Shown here: positions 20,044-24,272 of the stretch, one piece after another
How the letters are laid out: every line of letters begins with the position of its first letter
Numbering within the stretch: position 1 is the first letter of the stretch
The notes under the pieces: model-generated
Seen by the model: only the letters and a program-made list of their open reading frames with translations
Told to the model about the DNA's origin: nothing
Databases searched by the model: none
NCBI GenBank assembly: GCA_945861775.1
Contig: CAMAVT010000004.1
Span: 1 to 38,953 of the forward strand
DNA length: 38,953 nt
DNA from: Bifidobacterium breve
GTDB taxonomy: Bacteria > Actinomycetota > Actinomycetes > S36-B12
Direction: 5' to 3'
Translations under genes and position numbers: made by a program

Positions 20044-20059
20044 ATACCCCTGCGGGTAT
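20044..20059. promoter_or_regulatory. CsoR/CstR-type operator ATACCC-CTGC-GGGTAT
   Basis: Perfect 6-bp inverted arms, N4 spacer, upstream of the CsoR-family gene and overlapping its expected -35 position. Confidence 0.75.
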
Positions 20060-20084
20060 GTACTCGAGAGAGTAGTCTTTCCGC

Positions 20085-20345
20085 ATGAACCTTGAACCGG
20101 AGATCAACACCGAGGTGCTTACCCGACTAAAGCGTGCGAGGGGTCAACTCGATGGTGTGATCAACATGATTGAGACGGGTCGGGGTTGCACCGAGGTTGT
20201 TACCCAGCTCGCGGCAGTGTCTAAAGCCTTGGACCGGGCCGGTTTCAAAGTCGTCGCGGCTGGGATGCAGGAATGTTTTGAAAAAGGCGATGCTGCGCCG
20301 ATGACCCGGGAGCAGCTCGAAAAGTTGTTCCTCTCATTGGCCTAA
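20085..20345 (+). CDS. CsoR/RcnR/CstR (DUF156) family transcriptional repressor
   Basis: [55 protein letters not shown]; Cys35 and Cys64. Confidence 0.93.
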
Positions 20346-20379
20346 TATTCGTTAGCCCACAGGGGTAACCCCCCCTTTT

Positions 20380-20395
20380 TGTGCCTTTTGTCACA
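20380..20395. promoter_or_regulatory. CRP/FNR-superfamily-type site TGTG-CCTTTTGT-CACA upstream of pckG
   Basis: Matches TGTGA-N6-TCACA at 9 of 10 defined bases; ~104 nt upstream of pckG. Confidence 0.45.
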
Positions 20396-20498
20396 AGTGC
20401 CGTAGATCACCCTCGGATCGGTGGCGGAATCGGTCGTGAAGGTGCATGCTTGGGCAACGTAAAAATCTGCTCGCCCACCATCGCAAGGAAGTGATCCC

Positions 20499-22328
20499 AT
20501 GGCCGCTCGTCTCGATTTCGATTCAGCACCCACCCAAAATAAGCAACTCCTCGAGTGGGTTGACGAGATGGCCACCCTGTTGGAGCCTGACGCGATTGAG
20601 TGGAGTGACGGCTCTGAAGCCGAGTGGACGCGTTTGACCAACCAAATGGTTGATTCGGGAACCATGACCAGGCTCAATGAAGATCTGCGCCCCAATTCAT
20701 TCCTCGCCCGTTCAAACCCAAGTGACGTGGCTCGGGTTGAAAGCAGCACGTATATATGTTCCCAACGCGAAGTTGATGCAGGTCCCACCAATAACTGGAT
20801 GGAACCGACGGACATGCGTTCAACCTTGAATGGCTTAATGAAGGGTGCAATGCGCGGGCGCACTATGTATGTCATTCCATTTTCGATGGGACCACTCGGC
20901 TCCCGAATTGCCCAACTCGGCGTTGAAATTACTGACTCTCCCTACGTTGTTGTGAACATGAAACTCATGACACGCATGGGTCAGGCAGCACTGGACGAAA
21001 TTGGCGAGTTCGGTGAATTCGTTCCGGCCGTGCACTCGGTCGGTTACCCACTCGTGGACGCAGCAGGCAATGCAATCCCTGACGTTGCTTGGCCATGCAA
21101 TGACACCAAGTACATCGTTCATTTTCCTGAGACCCGTGAGATTTGGTCCTACGGCTCCGGTTACGGCGGCAACGCATTGCTCGGCAAGAAGTGCTTTGCA
21201 TTGCGTATTGCTTCGGCCATGGCCCGCGATGAAGGCTGGATGGCCGAACACATGTTGGTCTTGAAACTGACATCACCAGCAAACGACGTTAAGTACATTA
21301 CGGCTGCATTCCCTTCCGCGTGCGGAAAAACAAACCTTGCAATGCTTGAACCGACAATTCCGGGTTGGAAAGTAGAAACAATCGGAGACGACATTGCCTG
21401 GATGCGATTTGGGGAAGATGGTCGTCTCTATGCGATCAACCCAGAAGCTGGATTCTTTGGTGTTGCACCCGGAACGGGCATGAGCACGAACGCAAATGCT
21501 GTTCGCTCACTTGTCGGTAACTCGATTTTCACCAACGTAGCGCTAACCGATGACGGTGATATCTGGTGGGAAGGCTTCACCGATGAAGTACCCGCTCACC
21601 TCATCGACTGGAAGGGCAATGACTGGACGCCTGCTTCGGCAGATCCCTCAAGCCACCCCAATGCGCGATTCACAGTTCCTGCAGGCCAATGCCCATCGAT
21701 TGCCCCTAACTGGGAAGACCCAACGGGTGTCCCGATTGATGCAATCCTCTTCGGTGGCCGCCGCGCAACCAACGTTCCATTGGTCTCTGAAGCATTTGAC
21801 TGGGCCCACGGCGTCTTTGTTGGCTCATCCGTGTCCAGCGAGCAGACTGCCGCTGCCGAAGGAACCGTTGGCGCCCTGCGTCGGGATCCTTTTGCAATGC
21901 TGCCATTCTGTGGCTACAACATGGCCGACTACTGGGGTCACTGGCTCAAGATCGGTGGTTTCACCAGCGCGGATAAATTGCCACGTATTTACTCCGTGAA
22001 CTGGTTCCGCAAGGACACCGACGGAAAATTCATTTGGCCCGGATTCGGCGAAAACGCACGGGTTCTCGAATGGATCGTTAATCGACTCAGTGGCAAGGCC
22101 GAAGCGGTTGACACTCCCATTGGTCGGATCCCAGCAGCTGGTGCACTGAACACCGATGGCCTTAACCTGTCAGAGGAAAAGCTCGCTGAGCTCTTTGCCG
22201 TCAATGCGCAGTCGTGGTTGGCCGAAACCGATTTAACCCAAGAGTATTACGCGGAGTTCGGTGATCGGGTTCCTGCCGAACTCAACAACCAACTCCAAGG
22301 GTTACGCGATCGGTTAAAGAGCGCCTAA
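20499..22328 (+). CDS. pckG: Phosphoenolpyruvate carboxykinase (GTP)
   Basis: 609 aa; [13 protein letters not shown] kinase loop; [14 protein letters not shown] aaggaag. Confidence 0.97.
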
Positions 22329-22332
22329 CTGC

Positions 22333-23361
22333 TCAAGCGAGGGTTGCAACGAGAATTGATTTAATCGTGTGCATGCGGTTCTCTGCTTGATCGAATGCGA
22401 TGTTTGCGGGGGATTCGAATACCTCGTGCGTGATTTCAATTCCGCCGTGGAGATTGAAATCCTGGGCAATTTGCGCGCCAATCACAGTCTTGGTGTCGTG
22501 GTAGGCAGGTAGGCAATGCATCGCCTTCGCGTTGCTTCCGGCTAGGTCAAGCACCCTTTTATTTATTTGGTAAGGCTTGAGTAGCTCAATGCGCTCCTGC
22601 CACACGTCTTTGGATTCACCCATGGATACCCAAACGTCGGTGTGCACAAATTCTGCGCCCACTACCCCTTCGGCAATGTCTTCGGTGAGAGTGATTTTTG
22701 CGCCACTTTCCTGAGCCTTTGCGAGTGCTTGATCAATAACGCTTTGATCCGGCCACAACACTTTTGGAGCCACAATCCTGGTATCAGCGCCCATGAGTGC
22801 ACCCATGACTAACAGTGAATTTCCCATATTGTTTCGCGCGTCACCGAGGTAGCAATAGGACAGCGTTTCCTGGGGATTGCTCTGGTGCTCGCGCATCGTG
22901 AGGAAGTCAGCCAGCATTTGGGTGGGGTGCCATTGGTCGGTTAACCCGTTGTAGACCGGCACCGATGAGTTCTGGGCAAGTTCTTCCACCATGGCTTGCT
23001 CGCTACCCCGAAATTCAATTGCGTCAAAAATTCGACTCAAGACGCGAGCCGTATCAGCGGGGGATTCCTTGTGACCTATTTGGCTTGATGCTCCGTCAAG
23101 AAAGGTGGTGTTCCCACCTTGATCAGCCATAGCGACACTGAATGAGATTCGGGTGCGAGTTGACGTCTTTTCAAAGATCGCAGCCAAGTTCTTGCGCTGG
23201 AGTAATGCGGGTTCACTGCCCTGCTTGCGCAACTGCTTCAGGCGGGCTGCCAAATCAAGTAACGAATTTAATTCGACTGCCGTGAAATCGAGCTCACGTA
23301 AAAAGTCCCGCCCGGAAAGCCCGAGTGAACGGACGTATTCAGCCGTAAGTTCTGCATCCAT
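22333..23361 (-). CDS. argF: Ornithine carbamoyltransferase
   Basis: STRTRISF carbamoyl-phosphate motif, [25 protein letters not shown]. Confidence 0.95.
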
Positions 23362-23383
23362 CTACCAAGTCTAGGAGCAGGTA

Positions 23384-23779
23384 TTAACTCGCCGTGGAAT
23401 GGTAGATCCCTAATGCTTCATCAGAGATTGCATCATTGACTAATCCTTTTGCCGCAGCGATGCCGCTTCCCAGCACACTCGTGAGGTGTGACCCTCTTGG
23501 TTGATCAATTTTGCGGTAAATGGCTTCGCGTTCGACTTCACTTAGACCGCCCCACACGCCATATGGTTCACGGGCCCGGATTGCATAGTCGGCGCATTCC
23601 AGTCGGACCGGGCACGGAGCACATACTCGTTTAGCAGACTGATCCCGCCGAGAACGTGAAGAACCGCGTTCATTTTGTGGGTGGAAGAACAGCAGCGGAT
23701 CAACAGTGCGGCAGCGACCATCTTCCTGCCAGTGCCATTTAGAATCTAGCGGTACCTGTGCGAGCGGTTGCTGTGGCAT
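23384..23779 (-). CDS. WhiB-family Fe-S transcriptional regulator
   Basis: Four Cys (CRTVD...VCAPCPVRLEC) followed by GVWGGLSEVER. Confidence 0.95.
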   Translation of the reverse strand: MPQQPLAQVPLDSKWHWQEDGRCRTVDPLLFFHPQNERGSSRSRRDQSAKRVCAPCPVRLECADYAIRAREPYGVWGGLSEVEREAIYRKIDQPRGSHLTSVLGSGIAAAKGLVNDAISDEALGIYHSTAS

Positions 23780-23862
23780 GTGTCTTCAATCCCCTCTCAT
23801 GTCCTGCGTTGTACACCAATATAGGGCGTATTTGAGAGTGCTCTAGGCGGGACTTTAGTCCC

Positions 23863-24252
23863 CTATTCTGCGATTTTGTCGTGAATGTCCGGTTCATTTG
23901 ATATTGCAATTTCCTGGCGAACGGCTTCCATGTCCACGTCGCGAATAGCTGCGATTAAGTTGTCTAAACTTTCTTGGGGGAGTGCACCGGCTTGCGAATA
24001 AAGGACAACGCCGTCGCGGATCGCCATGAGGGTTGGGATAGATGAGATGTCAAAACCCCCAGCCAAACCTCGTTCAGCCTCGGTGTCCACCTTGGCGAAA
24101 ACAATGTCGGGATTAGACGCTGAGGCTTTTTCATATACGGGTGCAAAATTGCGACACGGTCCACACCATGCAGCCCAAAAGTCAACGAAGACGATTGGAT
24201 TTCCTTTGATGGTGTCAGAGAAGCTGGATTCTGTGAGATCAACGGTAGCCAT
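23863..24252 (-). CDS. Thioredoxin
   Basis: FWAAWCGPCRNFAPVYE; start assigned to second ATG (24252, MATVDLTE) because TAGGGT lies exactly 6 nt upstream; ORF also open from 24258. Confidence 0.93.
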   Translation of the reverse strand: MATVDLTESSFSDTIKGNPIVFVDFWAAWCGPCRNFAPVYEKASASNPDIVFAKVDTEAERGLAGGFDISSIPTLMAIRDGVVLYSQAGALPQESLDNLIAAIRDVDMEAVRQEIAISNEPDIHDKIAE

Positions 24253-24256
24253 GTAC

Positions 24257-24272
24257 ATACCCTAGGGGGTAT
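24257..24272. promoter_or_regulatory. CsoR/CstR-type operator ATACCC-TAGG-GGGTAT
   Basis: Same ATACCC-N4-GGGTAT arms as 20044-20059; contains the thioredoxin -10 (TAGGGT, minus strand 24264-24259). Confidence 0.78.

Follow-up and report, generated by a model that had tools for sequence, protein, structure and literature searches.

Predicted persulfide-responsive control of thioredoxin and a dispersed sulfur regulon by a CstR-type repressor in Candidatus Nanopelagicales

Two palindromes with the same half-sites, ATACCC-N4-GGGTAT, lie in one stretch of DNA (38,953 nucleotides, analysed as a whole and referred to below as the window): one, ATACCCCTGCGGGTAT, stands 5′ of a DUF156 repressor gene, and the other, ATACCCTAGGGGGTAT, at a thioredoxin (trx) promoter. 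Does a single repressor act at both, does its reach extend further, and does it answer to sulfur or to copper? An initial annotation of the window had proposed a mini-regulon made up of the repressor and thioredoxin, and we examined this proposal in the genome itself, in its relatives and against known systems.

Two N4 operators and a two-cysteine repressor

Both palindromes were found where the initial annotation had placed them (Table 1), with perfect 6-base arms and a 4-base spacer (N4), and a scan of the whole window recovered no other perfect match. Base composition predicts 0.0023 perfect sites for the window and 0.13 for the genome, compared to two and four observed, and the reversed control pattern had no perfect match in the same genome; the genome-wide scan that the annotation had suggested thus yielded a clear excess. 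When up to two mismatches were allowed, the genome gave 54 N4 matches versus 52 for the reversed control, which is background, and only exact sites were therefore used further. Because the assembly (2.26 Mb) is 85% complete, the four genomic sites are a lower bound.

Table 1 Features of the repressor and thioredoxin loci in the window
Feature	Position	Strand	Remarks
Carboxymuconolactone-decarboxylase (CMD, AhpD-like) C-terminal remnant	19917..20003	-	adjoins cstR; relatives such as G006 have the whole gene, divergent from cstR
N4 operator ATACCC-CTGC-GGGTAT	20044..20059	.	covers the -35 region of cstR
-10-like TAGTCT	20073..20078	+	6 nt 5′ of ATG, leaderless geometry; TANNNT-N6-ATG recurs in congeners and sister genera
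CstR-type DUF156 repressor, 86 aa (cstR)	20085..20345	+	invariant C35 and C64; Gly where CsoR has its His
Thioredoxin (trx, WCGPC)	23863..24252	-	PF00085, 83.8 bits; putative leaderless transcript
N4 operator ATACCC-TAGG-GGGTAT	24257..24272	.	invariant in 12/12 congeners but for one spacer base
trx -10 hexamer TAGGGT	24259..24264	-	inside the operator, 6 nt 5′ of ATG; 12/12 in genus and 4/4 in two further genera
trx -35 hexamer TTGCAT	24282..24287	-	17 bp from -10; TTG here in 11/12 congeners, TTGACA in two
DUF3039 gene	24336..24611	+	PF11238, 100 bits; divergent from trx, operator 63 bp upstream; trx-site neighbour in 15 genomes

The repressor has the DUF156 fold, matching PF02583 at 77.1 bits (cut-off 22.8); its best PDB matches were 7mq1/7mq2, which are deposited as CsoR, and 7MQ2 has been described as CstR (PMC9774590). 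Its two predicted sensing cysteines were invariant across 18 aligned orthologues and both were kept in 36 of 37 CstR orthologues, all 37 of which lack the CsoR-position His. The C-H-C set of Cu(I) ligands was present in 20/20 CsoR proteins compared, whereas position 60 of the window repressor is Gly. Its gene is flanked by PEPCK and peptidase S51 genes rather than by copZ or copA, and is preceded by an N4 rather than a CsoR-type N5 operator; the arrangement is that of the S. coelicolor regulator ScCsoR, with ATACC-N6-GGTAT 5′ of its own gene and of the targets. Most CstR genes have an N4 operator upstream (perfect or with arm changes), and never N5. The expected -35 region of the repressor gene does lie under the operator, as had been claimed, when judged from the -10-like hexamer and the ATG that follow it. 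In the CstR orthologue of genome G056 (L080) the second sensing cysteine is replaced (GLNQHA), and this genome has no perfect N4 site.

The thioredoxin promoter and the wider set of N4 targets

The longest trx open reading frame begins at 24258, but the start at 24252, on the minus strand, is common to the congeners and more likely. With this start, exactly 4 nt separate the N4 site from the ATG in every one of the 12 congeners and in four genomes drawn from two other genera, and the operator that the annotation had claimed at trx is fixed in 12/12 congeners. The -10 hexamer falls inside this operator, also as claimed, and its position before the start codon is the geometry expected of a leaderless transcript. 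Across the family, 23 of 25 members with a full trx orthologue retain the N4 site, the exceptions being G026, with one mismatch, and G029, with no site; in the window's own genome, the other three thioredoxin-like matches have no perfect N4 site. Most relatives with both genes on one contig have cstR and trx less than 10 kb apart. The divergent DUF3039 gene is possibly co-regulated through the trx operator.

Elsewhere in the genome, one N4 site (contig C59) precedes three ORFs, which encode a Cys-rich protein of 38 aa (MCSPAPCSSCNKITWSGCGEH...), a zinc-ribbon-like product and a glutaredoxin. The other (contig C185) separates the gene for a SLAC1-family transporter (PF03595) from that for a small membrane protein with no match in Pfam. 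The mini-regulon proposed initially therefore stands as far as its two sites are real and the trx operator is conserved, but the regulon is larger than those two genes. The Cys-rich protein (MCxxxTCxxCxKxTWxGCGxH..., no Pfam match), a candidate persulfide- or metal-binding protein, ranks second in frequency among N4 targets; its gene lies just 3′ of the site at 4252 in L018, and it was found in 28 relatives. A 171-aa membrane protein with a GCPVCNK motif (L019:683-1198, no Pfam match) is encoded divergently from the SLAC1 transporter across a common operator in a dozen genomes.

We detected 192 perfect N4 sites versus one match to the control pattern across 57 genomes of the order, and we grouped the flanking ORFs for 165 of the relatives' sites. 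Counted by genomes, the target families were rhodanese (34), the Cys-rich small protein (28), thioredoxin (27), the repressor (16), the SLAC1/membrane protein pair (13-14), CMD (10), thioredoxin reductase (4) and DUF393 (3). Recurrent families follow 152 of the 165 sites; the other 13 include genes for an FAD-dependent oxidoreductase, peroxiredoxin, DUF302, YgaP-TM and CcdA, the last three named partly by direct reading of the sequences. Where thioredoxin reductase carries the site (G019, G026, G028, G031), a second trx lies about 1 kb off. By operator position, these 165 sites place sulfur-handling genes under predicted CstR control. They mainly precede sulfur and redox genes; a prevalence before copper-efflux genes was the outcome that the annotation had named as contrary to its proposal. 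Rhodanese, the commonest target elsewhere, has no N4 site at any of its three genes in the window's 85%-complete genome.

N4 sites are still present in 7 of 12 relatives without a detected CstR, and a PF02583 search of these site-bearing genomes revealed no overlooked CstR. Three of the seven are congeners whose trx is no more than about 2 kb from a contig end; contig ends do not account for the absence of CstR in G032, G041 and G052. Presence of CstR was tried as a predictor of N4 site number and was not significant (Mann-Whitney p = 0.45), because these seven genomes carry N4 sites.

Operator spacing and the copper paralogue

The same genome also encodes a true CsoR (C-H-C) that heads copZ-copA on contig C47, and its operator, ATACCC-CCCTG-GGGTAT, has a 5-base spacer (N5), so that the copper operon has its own regulator and a different operator, in agreement with the initial reading of the window repressor as a sulfur/redox-stress regulator. 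Within the genus, no N4 site was found at copper genes; in sister genera, copper genes near N4 sites lie behind CstR, or consist of copA alone (L195/G028). In five genomes from three genera with no CsoR detected (G029, G018, G015, G026 and G013; L060, L061, L062, L064 and L065), copZ-copA or copA follows the CstR gene itself, and copper efflux there seems to have passed under the N4/CstR regulator. The remark that no copper ATPase or chaperone lies beside the repressor thus holds for the window but not for these five relatives, in which a copper role for the family is possible.

The association of spacer length with paralogue extends well beyond this genome. Order-level CsoR loci fetched by protein had N5 in 11/11 cases and N4 in none, and N5 sites occurred in 25 of 26 genomes with CsoR versus 1 of 31 without. 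Among named Actinomycetota, which included Streptomyces, Nocardia, Rhodococcus, Mycobacterium and Gordonia, 80 CstR loci held 178 copies of TACCC-Nn-GGGTA with n=4 and none with n=5, while 29 phylum-wide CsoR loci retrieved by protein profile, all C-H-C, had N5 in 18 (with at most one mismatch) and N4 in none. The same split held at 16 plasmid loci, including nine from Bacillota, with N4 in a sulfur context and N5 or nothing detectable in a copper context. In the locus sets compared, the contrast of N4 at CstR with N5 at CsoR is without exception. A possible exception to the spacer rule comes from G055, a genome with four DUF156 genes and five N5 sites: there, an N5 site (ATACCCAGAGAGGGTAT) stands 11 bp 5′ of the start of the trx orthologue (L264).

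Published data fit the rule: the operator of S. lividans CsoR is N5-spaced (PMC3902906), ScCsoR of S. coelicolor recognizes ATACC-N6-GGTAT, which is the N4 geometry, and is released by polysulfide via Cys37/Cys66 (PMC7533328), and for T. thermophilus TTHA1953 the addition or removal of one spacer base weakens binding 10-15 fold (PMC10318464). The one-base-shorter spacer appears to keep the persulfide and copper systems apart. While the correlation between spacer and paralogue is observed, the causal role of spacing is putative; we somewhat favor a one-base-pair code in Actinomycetota and at least part of Bacillota, in which identical half-sites ATACCC/GGGTAT would form a persulfide operator at 4 bp and a copper operator at 5 bp, with the spacing itself as the barrier to cross-talk. 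The N4/N5 rule is new with respect to the literature searched, in which we found no paper that states it and whose scope lay outside the S. aureus CsoR/CstR operator papers. It allows a one-base insertion to be used as a probe of what keeps near-identical paralogues of the CsoR family off one another's operators.

Predicted signal and comparison with known systems

The sequence shows where the operators lie and that they are conserved, how they are placed within the promoters, which genes follow them, which cysteines the repressor has retained and that CsoR has an N5 operator of its own. Together with the analogy to ScCsoR, this makes it highly probable that the window protein is a repressor of CstR type that senses persulfide and acts on its own gene, on thioredoxin and on a sulfur/redox regulon scattered over the genome. 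Homology to ScCsoR predicts DNA binding and a persulfide effector, and repression and the functions of the targets are likewise predicted. Reduced CstR tetramers would occupy ATACCC-N4-GGGTAT, giving autoregulation through the -35 region of cstR and direct occlusion of the leaderless trx promoter at its -10. Modification of C35/C64 by persulfide or polysulfide (sulfane sulfur) would cause the repressor to leave the DNA, inducing thioredoxin, the Cys-rich protein/glutaredoxin operon and the SLAC1-family exporter, so that excess sulfur would be reduced or exported. Thioredoxin would then reduce persulfides, and the SLAC1 protein, judged by its family, may export sulfite. Persulfide-reducing activity is known for S. 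aureus TrxA/TrxP (PMC6196236) and has been inferred in S. coelicolor from overexpression of trx (PMC9952706).

Other explanations fare less well. That the trx palindrome is a core promoter element (TAGGGT) resembling an operator by chance is barely credible: the -10 does fall within it, but the upstream arm ATACCC, which lies outside the core promoter, is invariant in 12 congeners while the flanks vary, and other genera retain the trx operator 18-63 bp away with differing spacers, which indicates that the operator and not merely the promoter is conserved. We also consider it improbable that the repressor is a copper (or copper and sulfur) sensor, its sites CsoR operators and trx induced by copper-driven thiol stress. 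Membership in the DUF156 family, two cysteines that could bind Cu(I) and the orthologues that head copper genes in the five genomes lacking a detected CsoR all agree with such a sensor, but none of the 37 orthologues has the His ligand, the genome's copper operon has a C-H-C CsoR and an N5 operator, N5 sites follow the presence of CsoR across genomes, and copper genes within the genus have no N4 site.

A comparably low probability attaches to a sensor of some other thiol stress (disulfide, electrophile, aldehyde or HOCl-like oxidant) in place of persulfide. A two-cysteine switch can react with several oxidants, and general redox enzymes (Trx, glutaredoxin, TrxR and peroxiredoxin) are among the targets; the commonest target family is nevertheless rhodanese, which is joined by SLAC1 transporters, DUF302 and YgaP-TM, and named CstR loci contain MBL-fold (PDO-type) hydrolases, TauE/SafE and rhodanese, all of which point to sulfane sulfur.

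The preferred reading, a persulfide-sensing CstR, has its closest parallel in S. coelicolor ScCsoR (SCO0620; PMC7533328), which shares the subfamily (two Cys, no His), the 16-bp operator, autoregulation, and a sulfane-sulfur circuit with rhodanese and sulfite-exporter-type targets. ScCsoR serves one compact cluster (PDO, rhodanese, TauE), whereas the sites here are dispersed and single and their targets include thioredoxin, the Cys-rich protein/glutaredoxin operon and the SLAC1 transporter; S. coelicolor trx genes have been tied to AdpA (PMC9952706), not to ScCsoR. CstR of Staphylococcus aureus and Enterococcus faecalis is likewise a two-cysteine persulfide sensor (C31/C60 or C62) of DUF156 fold with rhodanese-type targets, but its cst-type operon adjoins the repressor, and thioredoxin is not among its reported targets in the literature searched. 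Streptomyces lividans CsoR (PMC3902906) is a homologous protein with a G/C-tract palindrome, TAC/GTA ends and copZA targets; as a C-H-C copper sensor with an N5 operator, it has its counterpart in the CsoR of contig C47 and not in the window repressor. Thermus thermophilus TTHA1953 (PMC10318464), a CstR-like repressor, likewise has an inverted repeat with N4 spacing and a sulfur regulon that is dispersed, but its TAC/GTA double repeats lack G-tracts and its targets are sox genes. Thioredoxin as a conserved direct target of a persulfide repressor is predicted here and unreported in the literature searched: an enzyme known to reduce persulfides in vitro would be a conserved, promoter-embedded target of a dedicated persulfide repressor, and the uncultured aquatic actinobacterial lineage Candidatus Nanopelagicales gains a predicted sulfur-stress regulon.

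Thioredoxin accompanies a CstR-N4 locus in Streptomyces (L320) as well, and plasmids of Leuconostoc, Lacticaseibacillus and Priestia have CstR-N4 loci with an N4 site (exact or with one mismatch) directly before trx, so that the link between CstR and thioredoxin is not peculiar to the lineage of the window. A record titled as a Bifidobacterium breve MAG (L300) contains a CstR gene 72% identical to that of the window and a Nanopelagicales-like N4 site, and is probably mislabelled or a mixed bin. At L386 and in a cluster of 19 named loci, of Rhodococcus/Nocardia type, MMPL-family transporter genes adjoin cstR, with N4 sites nearby.
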